From an uncultured bacterium (GTDB taxonomy: Bacteria; Bacillota; Clostridia; Lachnospirales; Lachnospiraceae), in contig CANOLZ010000005.1 of assembly GCA_947567075.1 (NCBI GenBank), positions 1 to 52,515 of the forward strand: a stretch of 52,515 bases of DNA, read 5' to 3'. The notes below the pieces were generated by a model. The model was not told the origin of the DNA and searched no databases. It saw nothing but the letters and a program-made list of their open reading frames with translations. Position numbers and translations under genes: made by a program. Shown here piece after piece: positions 28,407 to 38,413 of the stretch (position 1 is its first letter; each line of letters begins with the position of its first letter).

Positions 28407-28450
28407 GTATGATAATCATGGAAAAGGGACTTAGGAGGAAAGATGAAAGA

Positions 28451-30033
28451 ATGAATCAAGATTATGAGACGGGAAGGGAGAAAATTATTATACTGGAAAA
28501 GGGTAAAAGGGGAATTTTACGTATTTTATTTGGAAGGACAACCATTGTATTTTTTCTTTTACTCATCCAGATTTTTCTTTTAGTTTTATGTTTTGGGTAC
28601 TTAAACAGTTATAGTGTATATATTTTTGGAGCCTATACAGCACTTGGATATATTGTAGTCATTTATATATTAAACAGAAGAGGAGAGCCGGCATTTCAAC
28701 TCACCTGGATAGTCATTGTTATGATTTTGCCTGTATTTGGGGTGCTTCTATATTTGTTTGTAAAGACCCAAATAGGAACCAGACTTTTGAACCGGAGAAT
28801 AAAGGATTTGGAAAAGAGGACAAGAGATTATTCTAGGCAGGATGAGAAAGTGTACCAGCAGCTGAAAGAGGAAAATAGAGGAGTTGCCAATTTAACGTCT
28901 TATATTTTAAATAGTGCAGGTTTTCCAGTTTATAATAACACTACGGTCAAGTATTTCCCCATAGGGGAGGAGATGCTTGAAACAATGCTTAACGAATTAG
29001 AAAAGGCAGAGAAATTTATTTTTTTAGAATATTTTATTGTAGAGGAAGGCTACATGTGGGGAAGAATATTAGAAGTGCTTTTAAGAAAGGCCAAGGAGGG
29101 AGTGGAAGTACGTTTTATGTACGATGGATTATGTTCCCTTGCTATTCTTCCGTATAATTATCCTAAGAAAATAGAAAAACTGGGAATTCGATGTAAAATG
29201 TTTTCCCCCATTAAACCAGCACTGTCTACCCACCAAAACAATCGAGATCACAGGAAGATACTTGTAATAGATGGACATACGGCTTTTACTGGAGGAATTA
29301 ACCTAGCTGATGAATACATCAATAAGAAGATTCGGTTTGGACATTGGAAAGATACAGGAATTATGCTGAAAGGAGATGGGGTAAGAAGCTTTACCTTAAT
29401 GTTTCTCCAAATGTGGAATATTAATGAAAGGAAGGAAGAATATAGCAAGTACTTAGACGTGGAACTCCCTATATATAAGGAGGCTTCTGGGTATGTCATG
29501 CCTTACGGGGATAGTCCTTTAGATGAGGAAATTGTAGGGGAGCTTGTCTATATGGACATTATAAATAGGGCTGAGGAGTATGTGCACATTATGACCCCTT
29601 ATTTAATTTTAGATTATGAACTTATAATGGCATTGACCTTTGCAGCAAAAAAGGAGTAGAAGTAATCATTATTATGCCTTTTATTCCAGATAAGAAAGCA
29701 GCATTTACCCTGGCAAAAACATATTACAAGGAGTTAATTGAAGCAGGTGTTAGAATTTTTCAATATATACCTGGATTTGTCCATGCAAAAGTTTTTACAA
29801 GTGATGGAGACAAAGCAGTAGTTGGAACAATTAATTTAGACTTCCGCAGCCTTCATCTTCATTTTGAATGTGCAACCTATTTGTATAAAGTAAAAGAGAT
29901 TAAAAAAATTGAGGAAGATATGCAGGAAACATTAAAAAAATGTAGAGAAGTAACCTTGACAGACTGCAAAAATGAGAAGTTGACAATTAAGATAATTGGG
30001 AGTATTTTAAGACTTTTTGCACCTTTAATGTAG
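28451..30033 (+). CDS. cls: Second cardiolipin synthase, split by a -1 frame change
   Basis: Phospholipase D-type cardiolipin synthase in two frames. The first frame (28451-29659, 402 aa) has two transmembrane helices, the REPAFQLTW region and the first HKD motif DHRKILVIDGHTAFTGGINL, then stops at TAG just after TFAAKKE. The -1 frame continues at once with GVEVIIIMPFIPDKKAAF and the second HKD motif HAKVFTSDGDKAVVGTINLD, ending at 30033. Together they give a normal protein of about 527 aa. The switch lies exactly at the heptamer A_AAA_AAG. Without it the product lacks one of two catalytic motifs. It may be a real -1 frameshift, a natural one-base deletion or an assembly error. The start at 28451 follows AGGAGG. 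Confidence 0.85.
29647..29653 (+). other. Slippery heptamer A_AAA_AAG inside cls
   Basis: The seven bases fall in the correct phase: zero-frame codons GCA AAA AAG, then GAG TAG. A -1 slip re-reads the last G and continues GGA GTA GAA, which restores the family sequence. This is the same heptamer that drives -1 frameshifting in Escherichia coli dnaX. I see no strong stimulatory stem downstream. The alternative is that the gene once had seven A and lost one. Confidence 0.6.
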
Positions 30034-30204: not shown

Positions 30205-30738
30205 ATGAAGACGCAAGCACTGATTGCCCATATTCTGAATTATATGGATGGTGAGATCCATGGACGCATTCAATTGCAGAAGCTCGTTTACTTTTGTAAA
30301 GCATATGGCACTGCTATAGATGCCAACTACAGGCTATATATTTATGGACCTTATAGCCAGCAGGTGGCGGACTCTTTGCAGGAAGGTGTCATGGAAGAGA
30401 TTTTCCAGGAATCAAGGGGGCTTATTTCTAAGGGAATGGGGTTTAAGGAATATACCCATACACTAAAGGGTGAAAATTCTCTCTGCAATGAGCAGAAGAA
30501 AATTGTACAAGATGTTCTCAACACCTTTGGAAATATGTCTGCCGAACAATTAGAAATTTTGGCAACAACGTATTTTATATACCGTCAGCAACATTCCTTA
30601 TTTGGAATGGTAGACAAAGAGACGGTACTGGATAAGGTAAGGCGGGCGAAATCTTCTCGTTTTACAGAAGAACAAATTGTCAATTCTTATAGAAAAATGG
30701 AGGAAATCTGTTTAAGGAAAATGGATCAAGGGTTTTGA
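30205..30738 (+). CDS. Panacea-domain (DUF4065, SocA/GepA-like) protein
   Basis: A 177-residue helical protein. The N-terminal half holds the family signature GRIQLQKLVYFCKAYGTAIDANYRLYIYGPYSQQVADSLQ, found in SocA-type antitoxins and phage-associated GepA proteins; the C-terminal half is charged and helical. Many Panacea proteins neutralise a neighbouring toxin, but no toxin-like gene is adjacent here: upstream is cls and downstream a terminator. GAGGAGGT lies 12 bases before the ATG. It may be a solitary member with another role, or its partner may be elsewhere. Confidence 0.8.
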   Translation: MKTQALIAHILNYMDGEIHGRIQLQKLVYFCKAYGTAIDANYRLYIYGPYSQQVADSLQEGVMEEIFQESRGLISKGMGFKEYTHTLKGENSLCNEQKKIVQDVLNTFGNMSAEQLEILATTYFIYRQQHSLFGMVDKETVLDKVRRAKSSRFTEEQIVNSYRKMEEICLRKMDQGF

Positions 30739-32746: not shown

Positions 32747-32801
32747 AAGATACTACATTTACATTGAAAGACAAAAAAGCCTTACAGAAATGAGGTGGAA
32801 C

Positions 32802-33587
32802 ATGGAGAAATATATAAAATTGGGGGATTTGGCAGGATGTCTTGGGCTAAAAAAAGGGGACAAAGTTTATATTGCTTCCGATGTTAAAAGGCTTCTCTAC
32901 TCATGCATAACGAATCAAGATGAAAAAGATTTGAACCTTTTCATTGACAGCCTTCAAAATATTGTAGGGGAAGAAGGAATGCTTATATTTCCCACATTTA
33001 ATTATAGTTTTTGTAAAGGAGAAACATTTGATTATAGAAAAACTCCTTCAAAAATGGGGCATTTGACACAGACTGCTCTTTTGAGAAAAGATTTTAAAAG
33101 GACAAAACATCCCATACACTCCATGACTGTGTGGGGAAGGGAAAAAGAGATTTTATGTGAGATGGAGAATAAAACTTCTTTTGGAATGGATTCTCCATTT
33201 CAATATATGAAGGACAATCATGTAAAAAATCTGTTCATTGACGTTCCTTGTGCTCATTCTTATGCATTTGTTCATTATGTAGAGGAGACAGTTGGAGTAG
33301 AATACCGTTTTTTTAAAGATTTTACAGGCGATTATATTGACCAATGGGGAAACTTGAGTCAGAGGACATATGGTATGTATGTTAGAGATTTAGAAAAAAA
33401 CCCAGTTCATACAAATTTTGACTTTGAAGAAGAATTTCAAGGGATTCACGTAATGAGAAAGTTTACCATTAATGGAGTAGATTACAAAATGATCGAAGAT
33501 ATGGGAAAAACCTTTCCAATTATAGAAAAGGACGTCCGCTATAATAAGAGTAGAAAAATATGCACTTATGCAGGACAGGAGGATTAA
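32802..33587 (+). CDS. AAC(3)-like N-acyltransferase of the carrier-protein cluster
   Basis: A 261-residue member of the aminoglycoside 3-N-acetyltransferase-like superfamily. Landmarks are LGLKKGDKVYIASDVKRLL, the core EEGMLIFPTFNYSFCKGETFDYRKTPSKMGHLT, and KRTKHPIHSMTVWGRE, equivalent to the HP-x-HS motif. The family also modifies amino sugars in glycan pathways, and the context points there rather than to drug resistance. The start at 32802 is preceded by GAGGTGGAAC. The next gene begins on the base after this stop. It may transfer an acyl group from the ACP at 36667 to an amine, which is inference. Confidence 0.82.
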   Translation: MEKYIKLGDLAGCLGLKKGDKVYIASDVKRLLYSCITNQDEKDLNLFIDSLQNIVGEEGMLIFPTFNYSFCKGETFDYRKTPSKMGHLTQTALLRKDFKRTKHPIHSMTVWGREKEILCEMENKTSFGMDSPFQYMKDNHVKNLFIDVPCAHSYAFVHYVEETVGVEYRFFKDFTGDYIDQWGNLSQRTYGMYVRDLEKNPVHTNFDFEEEFQGIHVMRKFTINGVDYKMIEDMGKTFPIIEKDVRYNKSRKICTYAGQED

Positions 33588-34889
33588 ATGGGAACAGAAG
33601 GCAGAAATATGTATGAGCTGGCAAAGGAGTTGTTCCCTATATGTAGAAGCATTACTGGAGAAGGAGTTAGGGAAACATTTCAAATATTAAAAAGACAAGA
33701 GAAGGATTTAAAAGTATTTGAAATTCCTACAGGGGAACCTGTCTTTGACTGGAAAATTCCAAAAGAATGGAATATAAGAGATGCTTATATTGAAAACGAG
33801 TCAGGGGAGAAAATGGTAGATTTTAAAAAAAATAATTTACATGTACTAGGTTATTCAACTCCTGTCAATAAGTATCTTTCCTTAGATGAGTTAAAGGAGA
33901 TTTTATATACACTGCCGGAACAACCAGAAGCCATCCCATACAGGACATCTTACTACAAAGAGAGGTATGGGTTTTGCCTTTCCGAAAATCAAAAGAACAC
34001 TTTGAAAGAGGGAAGGTATCATATTGTCATTGACAGCGAGTTAAAGGCTGGAAGTATGACATATGGAGAAATGATTATTCCAGGAGATACAGAGAAAGAG
34101 ATTTTATTGTCCACTTATATTTGCCATCCTTCTATGGCAAATAATGAATGCTCAGGGCCAAGTTTGGCAATCAGTTTGTCAAAAGCTATAAAAAGGATGA
34201 AAAAAAGAAAATATACTTATCGTATTGTTTTTGTTCCTGAAACGATTGGAGCTATTGCTTATCTTAGTCGAAATTTGGAATATTTAAAAAAACATGTGGA
34301 AGCAGGTTTTGTGCTGACTTGTGTGGGGGATGACAGAGCTTATTCCATGATAGAATCTAGATATGGAGATAGTCTTGCAGACAAGGCTTTGGAAACAATA
34401 TTACAACAAAGGGGGAGAACGTATAAACGATACTCCTATTTAGAGAGAGGCTCAGATGAAAGACAATATTGCGCTCCAGGAGTGGATCTGCCAGTCTGTA
34501 CTTTCTGCCGTTCCAAATTTGGAGAATATAAAGAGTATCATACATCTTTGGACAATATGGAAATTCTTTCTCCTGAAGGGTTCCAAGGAAGTTTTGACGT
34601 AATGATGGATGTGATTTTAGCCCTTGAGTATAATGAATTTTATCAAGTAACTTGTTTATGCGAACCCCAGCTTGGAGCGAGAGGGCTGTATCCGGATATG
34701 AATATTAGTGGGAAGGATGGGTTAAAGGAGATTATGGCTGTTCGAGATATGATAGGGTATGCAGATGGAAGAAATGATCTGTTTGATTTAAGCAGCAGAA
34801 TCCATGTCCCTGTCCGTCAAATGATTCCCTATATTGATCAGTTCCTTGAAAATGGCCTGTTTCGCATTGTAAGGAAGGAAAATAAGTGA
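33588..34889 (+). CDS. DUF4910 aminopeptidase-like protein
   Basis: A 433-residue protein of the DUF4910 family: an M28-like zinc peptidase fold with an inserted domain and a C-terminal winged-helix-like segment. The N-terminal AKELFPICRSITGEGVRETFQILKR is the family opening. Probable metal-site stretches are STYICHPSMANNECSGPSLAISL, FVPETIGAIAYL and ERGSDERQYCAPGVDLPVCTFCRSKFGEYKEYHTSLDN. Such proteins occur in polysaccharide and natural-product loci, and their reaction is not established. AGGAGGATTA lies before the ATG. It is contiguous with the acyltransferase gene and overlaps the FkbH-like gene by one base. Confidence 0.88.
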   Translation: MGTEGRNMYELAKELFPICRSITGEGVRETFQILKRQEKDLKVFEIPTGEPVFDWKIPKEWNIRDAYIENESGEKMVDFKKNNLHVLGYSTPVNKYLSLDELKEILYTLPEQPEAIPYRTSYYKERYGFCLSENQKNTLKEGRYHIVIDSELKAGSMTYGEMIIPGDTEKEILLSTYICHPSMANNECSGPSLAISLSKAIKRMKKRKYTYRIVFVPETIGAIAYLSRNLEYLKKHVEAGFVLTCVGDDRAYSMIESRYGDSLADKALETILQQRGRTYKRYSYLERGSDERQYCAPGVDLPVCTFCRSKFGEYKEYHTSLDNMEILSPEGFQGSFDVMMDVILALEYNEFYQVTCLCEPQLGARGLYPDMNISGKDGLKEIMAVRDMIGYADGRNDLFDLSSRIHVPVRQMIPYIDQFLENGLFRIVRKENK

Positions 34890-36670
34890 TGATAGAACAA
34901 TTAGAGTACCCTTTTGACAGTGGAGAGTTGCTGCAGAGGAAAAAATCCATAAAAAGAGAGCTTTTAAAAGAAGAGAATTTCATGGATAAGAGGGTGGCCA
35001 TCTTATGTGGATCGACAGTGGGAGAGATGAAGCATATGCTGGAACTTTTTTTGTTAGGTCATGGAATACGTCCTGCCTTTTTTGAAGGACAGTACAATCG
35101 ATTTTATGAGGAAGCTGTATTTGAGACAGAGAAATTAGCAAAGTTTGCCCCAGATATTGTGTATATTCATACAAGTGTTATAAATCTTCACGGATTTTTG
35201 GAACCGGGAGCTTCTAAAGAGGAAGTTGAGGAGGCAATAGAAGAGGAGTTTTCTAGATTCTGCCAAGTATGGGATAAGTTATTACGGGAAGTAAAATGTC
35301 TAGTGATTCAAAACAATTTTGAGCAGCTTCCTTACCGCCTTCTTGGAAATAAAGATGTGTACGATCCATCAGGTAAACTATACTATATTAGAATGTTTAA
35401 TGATAAATTGTATACGTATGCAATGGAAAATAAAAACTTTTATATTAATGATCTTGCCTATGAAGCGTCCTCTTATGGATTAGAACGATGGTTTGACGAC
35501 AGCATGTATTATATGTATAAATATCCTTTTGCAGTAGACGCCATACCAGGAGTAGCCTTTAACATTGCCAATATAGTGAAAAGCATTTATGGAAAGAATA
35601 AGAAAGCGGTCGTCCTTGACTTAGATAACACATTATGGGGAGGTGTTATTGGGGATGATGGAGTGGAGAATTTGGAATTAGGAGTAGATACTCCTTCTGG
35701 AATGGCATTTTCTGCTTTTCAAAAATATATGAAAGGTTTAAGCAAGATTGGAATTACATTAAATGTCTGCTCTAAAAACGATGAAAAAATTGCCAAGATG
35801 GGATTTTCTCATAGAGAATCCCTTTTACAGCTAGATGATTTTATTTCCTTTAAGGCCAACTGGAATAATAAAGATAAAAATATAAAAGAAATCATAGAGG
35901 AATTGAGAGTTGGAGAAAACACCATAGTTTTTTTGGATGATAATCCAGCAGAGAGGGAGCTTGTAAAAAAAGCAATTCCAGATATTCAAGTTCCCAACTT
36001 AGGCTCTCCTGAATCTTATGTGAGGACTTTGGACAAAGGAGGCTTTTTTGAAGTTACAGTATTATCAAGGGACGATATAGATAGGAAGGAATATTATATA
36101 GAAAATAAAAAAAGGGAAGAGCATTGGACTCGTTTTACAGATTATAAGGAATATTTAAAGTCCATGGAAATGGTTTGTAATGTTGAGGAATTTCATAATA
36201 AAAATATTCAAAGGATAACTCAGCTTATTAACAAAACGAATCAGTTTAATTTAACGACAAAGCGTTATACCCAAGAACAGGTGCAAAATTTCTCAGAAAA
36301 AGAAGAGAATATTACCTTTTGCAGCCATTTATCCGATAAATTTGGAAAGAATGGAATTGTTAGCGTTATGATGGTTCGTGTATGTAGGGAAACGGCTTTT
36401 ATTGATCTGTGGGTTATGAGCTGCCGGGTGTTAAAAAGAGACTTAGAGTTGGCAATGTTCGACTACTTAGTAAAAGAATGCATAAAAAGAAAGATCAAAA
36501 GAATTCAAGGCGTTTACTATAAGACGAAAAAAAATGCTTTTGTTGAAAATTTATATGAAGATTTAGGATTTCAACTTATGACAAAGGATGATGAGCACAG
36601 TACATGGGAATATATAGTCCTTCCCAATTATGAAGAGAAAAATCAAGTGATGGAAATGAGGAAAACATGA
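34889..36670 (+). CDS. FkbH-like HAD-family acyl-loading protein
   Basis: A 593-residue FkbH-type protein. The N-terminal SGNH-like domain has LCGSTVGEMKHMLELFLLGHGIRPAFFEG. The HAD domain has VVLDLDNTLWGGVIGDDG (nucleophile Asp244, with Asp246), LNVCSKNDE, the lysine in SFKANW, and FLDDNPAERE (Asp350-Asp351). A C-terminal GNAT-like region follows from about 410. FkbH relatives take 1,3-bisphosphoglycerate, dephosphorylate it and load glyceryl on an acyl carrier protein. An ACP gene overlaps its end by four bases, so the pair is probably functional. Start at ATG 34889; a GTG at 34886 is also possible. Confidence 0.9.
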   Translation: MIEQLEYPFDSGELLQRKKSIKRELLKEENFMDKRVAILCGSTVGEMKHMLELFLLGHGIRPAFFEGQYNRFYEEAVFETEKLAKFAPDIVYIHTSVINLHGFLEPGASKEEVEEAIEEEFSRFCQVWDKLLREVKCLVIQNNFEQLPYRLLGNKDVYDPSGKLYYIRMFNDKLYTYAMENKNFYINDLAYEASSYGLERWFDDSMYYMYKYPFAVDAIPGVAFNIANIVKSIYGKNKKAVVLDLDNTLWGGVIGDDGVENLELGVDTPSGMAFSAFQKYMKGLSKIGITLNVCSKNDEKIAKMGFSHRESLLQLDDFISFKANWNNKDKNIKEIIEELRVGENTIVFLDDNPAERELVKKAIPDIQVPNLGSPESYVRTLDKGGFFEVTVLSRDDIDRKEYYIENKKREEHWTRFTDYKEYLKSMEMVCNVEEFHNKNIQRITQLINKTNQFNLTTKRYTQEQVQNFSEKEENITFCSHLSDKFGKNGIVSVMMVRVCRETAFIDLWVMSCRVLKRDLELAMFDYLVKECIKRKIKRIQGVYYKTKKNAFVENLYEDLGFQLMTKDDEHSTWEYIVLPNYEEKNQVMEMRKT

Positions 36671-36915
36671 ATAGAGCAGAAATTTTTGAGGAAGTCCAAA
36701 AAATTTTCAGGAAAGTATTTGATGATGAGCAATTAGAGATAAGAGATTCCACCTATTCAGGAGATATTGAAGATTGGGATTCTCTAGAACATATTAATTT
36801 AATTGTAGCCATGGAGAAAAGGTTCCAGCTGAAATTTGATATTCAGGAAGTTGGAGAGCTGGAAAATGTAGGAGAAATGATTGATTTAATTGAAAGGAGA
36901 CTGAATGGTCAATGA
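36667..36915 (+). CDS. Acyl carrier protein
   Basis: An 82-residue stand-alone carrier protein. The phosphopantetheine attachment serine lies in IEDWDSLEHINLIVAME, the standard DSL motif, within a four-helix acidic sequence. It overlaps the FkbH-like gene by four bases and the MaoC gene by four bases, so it is dedicated to this cluster rather than to general fatty acid synthesis. No phosphopantetheinyl transferase gene is in the window; the housekeeping enzyme would be needed. Confidence 0.93.
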   Translation: MNRAEIFEEVQKIFRKVFDDEQLEIRDSTYSGDIEDWDSLEHINLIVAMEKRFQLKFDIQEVGELENVGEMIDLIERRLNGQ

Positions 36916-37328
36916 ACACCTATAAATATGAAAATATTTATGTAGGGTTGAGCCACAGCTTTCAGGTGATTGTAGGTCAGAAAGAGCAGGATTCTTTTTC
37001 CAATATAACAGGTGACATCAACCCTCTTCATAGGGATGTGGCATTTGCAAAGAAAAAAGGATATGAGGACTGTGTCGTATTTGGTATGTTGACAGCTTCT
37101 TATTATTCTACATTGGCAGGCGTTTACTTGCCAGGAGAAAATAGTTTACTTCATGGCGTGGACGCTAAATTTTTAAAGCCAGTATTTGTGGGAGACATAT
37201 TAACAGTAGAAGGAAAGGTCAGTGAAAAAAATGATGCATATAAACTTTTAATCATTAAGGCTTTTATTCGCAACCAAAATGGCGAGAAGGTTTCCAGAGC
37301 CACAATACGAGTCGGTGTGTTGGAATAA
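36912..37328 (+). CDS. MaoC-like (R)-hydratase/dehydratase
   Basis: A 138-residue single hot-dog domain. The (R)-specific enoyl hydratase signature is complete: FSNITGDINPLHRDVAFAKKKGY, with catalytic Asp and His. It continues VVFGMLTASYYSTLAGVYLPGENSLLHGVDAKFLKPVFVGDILTVEGKV, also typical. It would hydrate an enoyl thioester or dehydrate a 3-hydroxyacyl thioester, perhaps bound to the adjacent ACP. It is the last gene of the overlapping set; the next gene starts 20 bases later and is a signalling protein. Confidence 0.92.
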   Translation: MNTYKYENIYVGLSHSFQVIVGQKEQDSFSNITGDINPLHRDVAFAKKKGYEDCVVFGMLTASYYSTLAGVYLPGENSLLHGVDAKFLKPVFVGDILTVEGKVSEKNDAYKLLIIKAFIRNQNGEKVSRATIRVGVLE

Positions 37329-37348: not shown

Positions 37349-38413
37349 ATGTCAAGGAAAGTTATGGTTGTGGATGATGTTTCTTTGAATGTTAGAATGC
37401 TGGAAGACATTTTGAAAAACGATTACATTGTTTTAACAGCTCAGTCAGGGGAGGAGGCCTTGGGTTATTTAAAGAAAATTACCCCTGACTTAATTTTGCT
37501 GGATAACACAATGAAGGGAATGAGTGGATTTGATGTATTGAGGGTTATGAGAAAAGATTCTGCTCTAAAAAGTATTCCAGTTATTCTTTTATCTAGTAAT
37601 GAAGATGATGGGGTGGAAGTGGATAGTTTAGAAGAAGGGGCTGTTGACTTTATAAGAAGGCCATATAGGGCCAAATGCGTTCAGCAAAGAGTGAAAACCC
37701 ATATAGAGCTGGCTGATTATCGAAAAAACTTGGAACAAGTTATTAGCCAGCGTTCAAAACAAATCGATCGCATGGAGAATGCGTTTATGCAATGCCTTGG
37801 GGAGCTGGTGGAGTTTCGCAGCGGTGAAAGTGGAAATCATATTGCTCGGACAACGTTATACTGTGAAGCGCTGGCCATGGAGCTTCGGGACGGATATCCT
37901 TATGAGGGAGAAGTGACCGATTGGTTTATGGAAGACTTAAAAAAGGCAGTTCCCCTCCATGATATTGGAAAAATTGGAGTTAGGGATCAGCTATTAATTT
38001 GTGAAGATGAATTGACAATAGAGGAAAAGGGAGAGCTAGAAGAGCATACTCTTATTGGAGAAGAAATATTGAGCAGGCTTATTGAAAATGCCATTATAAA
38101 AGGGTATTTACGCATGGCAAAGGATCTTGCTGCAAGTCACCATGAAAATTATGACGGCACTGGATATCCAAAACATTTAATAGGGATGGAGATTCCCCTT
38201 ATTGGGAGAATTATGTCAATAGCCGATACTTATGATACTTTAAGATCCCTTTCCAATGAGAGAGAGCCTATGGGGCACGAAGAGGCATGTCAGGTGATTT
38301 TTAGTGGTACAGGAACGAAATTTGATCCTATTCTTGTACAGGCCTTTCGTGCAGTCAACATACAATTTGATGATATTTTTCAAGACTATGGAGAGGAAGG
38401 AGACGAAGATTAA
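37349..38413 (+). CDS. Response regulator with HD-GYP cyclic-di-GMP phosphodiesterase domain
   Basis: A 354-residue protein. The receiver domain (1-120) has the acidic pair Asp9-Asp10 and phosphoacceptor Asp52 in LILLDNTMKGMSG; the switch lysine that normally precedes the cis-proline is Arg104 in FIRRPY, which is unusual. A helical linker leads to the HD-GYP domain (150-345) with GNHIARTT, PLHDIGKIG, EEHTLIGEEIL, SHHENYDGTGYP and IMSIADTYDTLRS, all catalytic landmarks present. It should hydrolyse cyclic di-GMP. No histidine kinase gene is adjacent. GAAAGGGGGGAAAG precedes the ATG. Confidence 0.93.
   Translation: MSRKVMVVDDVSLNVRMLEDILKNDYIVLTAQSGEEALGYLKKITPDLILLDNTMKGMSGFDVLRVMRKDSALKSIPVILLSSNEDDGVEVDSLEEGAVDFIRRPYRAKCVQQRVKTHIELADYRKNLEQVISQRSKQIDRMENAFMQCLGELVEFRSGESGNHIARTTLYCEALAMELRDGYPYEGEVTDWFMEDLKKAVPLHDIGKIGVRDQLLICEDELTIEEKGELEEHTLIGEEILSRLIENAIIKGYLRMAKDLAASHHENYDGTGYPKHLIGMEIPLIGRIMSIADTYDTLRSLSNEREPMGHEEACQVIFSGTGTKFDPILVQAFRAVNIQFDDIFQDYGEEGDED

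Follow-up and report, generated by a model that had tools for sequence, protein, structure and literature searches.

A five-gene FkbH-ACP-MaoC operon in a Lachnospiraceae genome, proposed as an N-acyl-exchange module for flagellar nonulosonic acid

The operon described here raises two linked questions: which acyl group is placed on its dedicated carrier protein, and onto what molecule is that group moved? The operon lies in a window of 52,515 nucleotides, which is the whole of contig C5 and part of a 2.29 Mb Lachnospiraceae genome (79% complete). Open reading frames (ORFs) and family models define five + strand genes at 32802-37328, encoding in order an AAC(3)-like acyltransferase, a DUF4910 protein, an FkbH-family loader, an acyl carrier protein (ACP), and a MaoC-family enzyme. 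None has an internal stop, and the best starts (32802, 33588, 34889, 36667, and 36912) have purine-rich stretches upstream. The first-pass annotation of this DNA described the genes as touching or overlapping, which is borne out by intact + strand ORFs whose successive junctions overlap by 0, 1, 4, and 4 bases. Its statement that the operon has no ketosynthase, dehydrogenase, or methyltransferase is correct for the cluster, but a paralogous locus on contig C33 (L063, 42-4232) does include a dehydrogenase: there, a short-chain dehydrogenase (SDR) and an MBOAT O-acyltransferase are encoded with a further FkbH-ACP pair, which has 47% and 53% identity to that of the window. The C33 locus is probably an O-acylation counterpart of the module.

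The AAC(3)-like N-acyltransferase (261 aa, 32802..33587; PF02522, 8e-25) has AGGTGGA immediately upstream of its start. Counting from an alternative start at 32790, its H162 and E165 are kept in 90-100% of 21 homologues, and weak sequence matches connect it to solved AAC(3) enzymes and to FrbF (3sma, E 0.044). A role in aminoglycoside resistance was rejected, the protein scoring 21.7 bits against a curated AAC_3 cut-off of 270. We propose that this enzyme moves an acyl group from the ACP onto a sugar amine, the expected donor being acyl-ACP and the expected acceptor a sugar of the cell. The DUF4910 aminopeptidase-like protein (433 aa, 33588..34889; PF16254, 3.2e-102; PF09940, 7.3e-38; PF16221, 4.2e-17), for which we propose a role as sugar N-deacylase, has a solved relative (3k9t, 2.5e-115) and named relatives that include Lachnospiraceae and Roseburia; residues H180, E218, D290, E291, and H318 are kept in 97-100% of 40 homologues.

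The FkbH-family acyl loader (593 aa, 34889..36670) matches TIGR01686 above cut-off (1.6e-81) and PF21211 (1.1e-16), with intact DLDNT, SKN, and DDN motifs and an SCR containing the invariant cysteine. Its partner ACP (82 aa, 36667..36915) is at the PF00550 cut-off (20.9 bits against 20.8); the DSL serine is present, in DSLEHI, and D38 and S39 are invariant among 18 homologues. The MaoC-family hot-dog dehydratase/hydratase (138 aa, 36912..37328; PF01575, 7.6e-14) carries the GDxNPLH dyad, D35 and H40, both invariant in 9 homologues. From family knowledge, we take conserved residues of the operon's proteins to have metal-binding or acyl-binding roles. Family knowledge and the intact motifs likewise suggest that loading of the ACP by FkbH is likely the entry step of the pathway.

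We consider the five genes a functional unit because the same order occurs in a genome of another genus (G296) and the same set, with a fusion ORF, occurs in another phylum (L134). In G296 the identical five-gene order is followed by Sir2, and protein identities to the window are 53% (AAC(3)-like), 62% (DUF4910), 54% (FkbH), 78% (ACP), and 65% (MaoC). Locus L134 is from a sample of Campylobacterales, the order to which a Helicobacter genome belongs; there DUF4910-FkbH-ACP precedes a 394-aa ORF, after which comes a methyltransferase. The N-terminus of this ORF is MaoC-like (tblastn to the window MaoC, 1.4e-10; Pfam 24.7 bits, below the 27-bit cut-off) and its C-terminus is AAC(3)-like (7.5e-39), so that it reads, in one assembly, as a putative MaoC-AAC(3) fusion. 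Shorter versions were also found: AAC3-DUF4910-ACP-MaoC lies immediately upstream of Sir2 in G265 and G217, as does DUF4910-MaoC upstream of Sir2 in G103, while AAC3-DUF4910-ACP-MaoC in G780 and DUF4910-ACP-MaoC in G076 occur in other settings. Sir2 is a conserved downstream neighbor of the module in relatives; the HD-domain response regulator found at 37349 in the window is absent between MaoC and Sir2 in G296, G265, and G217.

This co-conservation, together with the putative fusion, bears out the earlier claim that the genes serve one pathway; the annotation had itself proposed a search for the same gene order as a check, and the pathway idea survives the recovery of that order in G296 and of the same set in L134. 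The SGNH, YdcF-like, and YjbQ genes upstream, which it had named as possible members, are not conserved with the module and were set aside, as the AAC(3)-like gene is preceded by other genes in G296, G265, and G217. Farther upstream in the window, a phospholipase-D/cardiolipin-synthase-like gene, recognized by eye at 28409-30033, seems to fall into two ORFs, at 28409-29659 and 29674-30033, perhaps through a frameshift or sequencing error. At 30205-30738, outside the module, lies a gene for a Panacea/SocA-domain protein (PF13274); the protein matches DarG weakly and might be an orphan antitoxin.

To what kind of molecule does the module point? We annotated 46 DUF4910 loci, with flanks of varying length, using hand-picked queries in tblastn. 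Of these, 24 contain an AAC(3)-like gene, and in 22 of the 24 an acyl loader (FkbH, AMP-ligase, or FabH) or an ACP is encoded too. In 21 of the 46 loci there are MAF-type or flagellar genes or NeuB/PseB/PseG, and the other 25 had no strict nonulosonic or flagellar neighbor. None of eight control FkbH loci without DUF4910 contained any of these genes or an AAC(3)-like gene. The contexts are in several cases explicit: PseG, DUF4910, AAC3, FkbH, ACP, MaoC, and SDR in L115 (genome G285); DUF4910-AAC3-ACP-FkbH with two MAF-type genes after it, of which the first was verified as PF01973, in L099 (G325); two flagellin genes adjoining the DUF4910 locus L065 (G029); and ACP-AAC3-DUF4910 adjoining PseC-, PseB-, PF01973-, and flagellin-type genes in L133. 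L066 is a DUF4910 locus amid Pse-type genes, and L010, from Treponema, has PseF-, FabH-, FkbH-, AAC3-, DUF4910-, and PseH-type genes. The Sir2-linked MaoC operons L067, L105, and L112 have no nonulosonic-acid or flagellin genes nearby, and for these the sugar link is therefore one at the level of the genome, as it mostly is for operons with MaoC.

A set comprising an HMGL-like aldolase, an AAC(3)-like protein, an ACP, a putative cyclase (PF04199), an AMP-ligase, and DUF4910 recurs in L065 (1702-7777) and L066 (4803-10910), and looks like a variant of the module in which another loader would supply an amino- or hydroxyacyl group. A large protein is encoded in nonulosonic-acid and DUF4910 loci at L060 14292-16409 and L011 3763-6312; the C-terminus of the L060 protein is citrate-lyase-ligase-like (PF08218). 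In Campylobacterales, DUF4910 adjoins genes for AAC(3)-like proteins that are extended at the C-terminus and measure about 410-420 aa (L132 6578-7843, L133 1519-2742, and L136 2227-3492).

Association at the genome level was assessed with genome lists transcribed by hand. DUF4910 was present in 8 of 398 genomes sampled across the phylum and 18 of 397 sampled from the family, the latter 18 representing 16 genera. With shared ancestry ignored in every p value, the DUF4910 genomes of the family were enriched for flagellin (18/18 vs. 212/397, p 8.8e-6), for NeuB (17/18 vs. 165/397, p 2.3e-6), for NeuB when only flagellated genomes were compared (17/18 vs. 149/212 overall, p 0.012), and for FkbH (12/15 vs. 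46/284 others, p 2.9e-7). The sole DUF4910 genome without NeuB is 61% complete.

The genome that carries the window has genes for both flagellin and nonulosonic acid. On contig C2, a flagellin gene shares a locus with LegC (above cut-off), NeuC, NeuB, a piece of a NeuD-type acetyltransferase, and glycosyltransferases; a second NeuB locus, on C1, has LegB (above cut-off), a NeuB homologue, and a PseF-like enzyme. No PseB scored above cut-off in this 79% complete genome, and a legionaminic-type acceptor is therefore more likely here than pseudaminic acid, a preference read from the gene content of an incomplete assembly. The C1 and C2 loci are separate from the operon; on C5, we saw neither a nonulosonic-acid gene nor a flagellin gene adjoining it.

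That separation is one reason to weigh the same chemistry directed at an amino sugar of the capsule, wall, or other surface polysaccharide. Sister FkbH-ACP pairs, that on C33 included, sit with MBOAT and glycan genes, and several DUF4910 loci (e.g., L018, L019, and L021) showed no nonulosonic-acid genes. The near-universal flagellin and NeuB of DUF4910 genomes, the absence of both DUF4910 and AAC(3)-like genes from the eight FkbH control loci, the contexts of L115, L099, L065, and L133, and the precedent of Campylobacter jejuni Cj1295 all count against such an acceptor, and we judge it possible but on the unlikely side. That an ACP-borne short acyl group goes to some amino sugar, whichever it is, we hold with fair confidence. 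More narrowly, we lean toward reading the operon as an N-acyl-exchange module of the Cj1295 kind, in a MaoC variant, that serves a flagellar nonulosonic acid with a glycerate-derived group.

For such a module the analysis establishes the gene identities, the intact motifs, the co-conservation, the fusion ORF, and the nonulosonic-acid and flagellar association; each reaction, the identity of the acyl group, and the acceptor sugar are inferred. FkbH would set a glyceryl unit, presumably from 1,3-bisphosphoglycerate, onto the dedicated ACP, and MaoC would reshape the ACP-bound group. DUF4910 would strip the sugar of an existing N-acyl group (probably N-acetyl), leaving a free amine on which the AAC(3)-like enzyme would place the ACP-borne group. 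The substrate would be a legionaminic- or pseudaminic-type flagellar nonulosonic acid, or its nucleotide-linked form.

MaoC admits another starting point, in which it acts as an enoyl hydratase, the AAC(3)-like enzyme transfers the resulting 3-hydroxybutyryl-type group, and FkbH is secondary or serves another product. 3-Hydroxybutyryl groups are known on nonulosonic acids, the best NCBIfam match of MaoC is the enoyl-CoA hydratase/phosphate acetyltransferase family (below that family's cut-off), and L105, L111, and L112 have AAC3-DUF4910-ACP-MaoC without FkbH on site. However, the four sampled genomes whose operons lack FkbH (G265, G217, G103, and G076) all encode a homologue elsewhere, compared with 58/299 overall (p 0.001), those of G103 and G076 being distant at about 35% identity; and FkbH is kept within the operon in the window, G296, G285, and L134. 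We consider a 3-hydroxybutyryl product quite unlikely.

Among the FkbH-ACP loci of relatives, an SDR follows MaoC in L039, L043, L047, L072, L115, and L035 (the last cut by the contig end); in L068 and G296, as in the window, none does. Identity between the C33 dehydrogenase and the SDRs of the MaoC loci is 33-42%, and the L043 and L115 SDRs are 73% identical to each other. Because MaoC in the sister loci often precedes a dehydrogenase, a pyruvyl or lactyl product is possible: loss of the 3-hydroxyl from glyceryl-ACP would give pyruvyl-ACP, and reduction, possibly by the C33 SDR, would give lactyl-ACP. The flagellar nonulosonic acid would then be N-pyruvylated or N-lactylated from a glycolytic intermediate, and a similar acyl-ACP would feed MBOAT O-acylation of surface glycans; as a whole, we offer this scheme tentatively and think it rather unlikely. 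FkbH-type formation of a lactyl starter reportedly occurs in a polyketide pathway; our literature search returned nothing usable on FkbH with MaoC on nonulosonic acids, nor on an FkbH lactyl precedent. Separately, a small glyoxalase/VOC-type protein adjoins FkbH-ACP in L027, L028, L033, L038, L040, L046, L048, L050, L070, and L071, and might epimerize the acyl group at C2.

The model of the first-pass annotation thus stands in large part. A single pathway, transfer to the amino group of a sugar, and removal of a group by DUF4910 are supported, the last by the Cj1295 precedent, in which the deacylase role is its authors' hypothesis; a peptide as acceptor found no support, and the upstream genes fall away. 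Two things can be added to that model: the likely acceptor, a nonulosonic acid on flagellin, and the Cj1295 precedent itself. The sugars on flagella matter for how gut bacteria move, are bound by phage, and are recognized by the immune system. If the proposal is true, orphan genes are joined into one pathway that supplies a hydroxyacyl group to flagellar sialic acid-like sugars in exchange for N-acetyl, and relatives of the module suggest genes behind an orphan sugar decoration in Campylobacter. In addition, AAC(3)-like matches in such loci need not mean antibiotic-resistance genes.

Of the known systems compared, the AAC(3) family (aminoglycoside AAC(3) and FrbF) shares the PF02522 fold family with the operon's enzyme, which falls below the resistance cut-off. 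Shewanella sfmABCDE was rejected as a parallel, its genes being different. FkbH glyceryl-ACP pathways are closer: methoxymalonyl-ACP and tetronate pathways typically pair an FkbH loader with a stand-alone ACP (PMC7489565), and in the operon an FkbH that has HAD motifs is accompanied by an ACP whose serine can be modified. This resemblance is the point in favor of a small-molecule pathway, polyketide- or tetronate-like, built on a glyceryl-ACP unit. Unlike those pathways, however, the operon lacks dehydrogenases, an O-methyltransferase, a FabH-like enzyme, and a polyketide synthase: neither gene set (two dehydrogenases and an O-methyltransferase, or a FabH-like enzyme, plus the synthase) was found among the ORFs around it, nor was a ketosynthase, peptide synthetase, or other methyltransferase in or near it, and its relatives occur in sugar loci. 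A polyketide role was rejected because the synthase is absent nearby, and a small-molecule product in general appears very improbable. The FkbH-ACP-MaoC-SDR and FkbH-ACP-MBOAT loci of Lachnospiraceae share the FkbH (45-54% identity) and ACP (42-78%) subfamilies with the operon and, in part, MaoC, but have no AAC(3)-like or DUF4910 gene; the MBOAT arrangement suggests O-acylation.

The closest likeness is to the Cj1295 system. Cj1295 is needed for 2,3-di-O-methylglyceroyl pseudaminic acid on C. jejuni flagellin, and was hypothesized to strip the N5-acetyl group, whose place glyceroyl would then take (Hitchen et al. 2010; PMC3068675). Two strains are without the glyceroyl glycan: 12664, which carries the fkbH-domain gene cj1302 as a pseudogene, and 12661, in which cj1301 is missing (PMC7099621), a correlation that fits FkbH as the glyceroyl source. 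Cj1295, an aminopeptidase-like protein of 435 aa (PIRSF015244), resembles the operon's DUF4910 protein in reported architecture, and its assignment to the DUF4910 family is based on reported length, aminopeptidase-like annotation, and family number. Its neighbor Cj1296/7 is listed as an N-acetyltransferase, and the locus contains the fkbH-domain gene Cj1302; correspondingly, the operon encodes a DUF4910/DUF2172 aminopeptidase-like protein together with AAC(3)-like, FkbH, and ACP genes. The operon differs in having MaoC and no methyltransferase, and in that the sugar genes, legionaminic-type in appearance, lie elsewhere in the genome; in L065, L099, L115, and L133, the corresponding genes sit within a nonulosonic-acid or flagellin locus.
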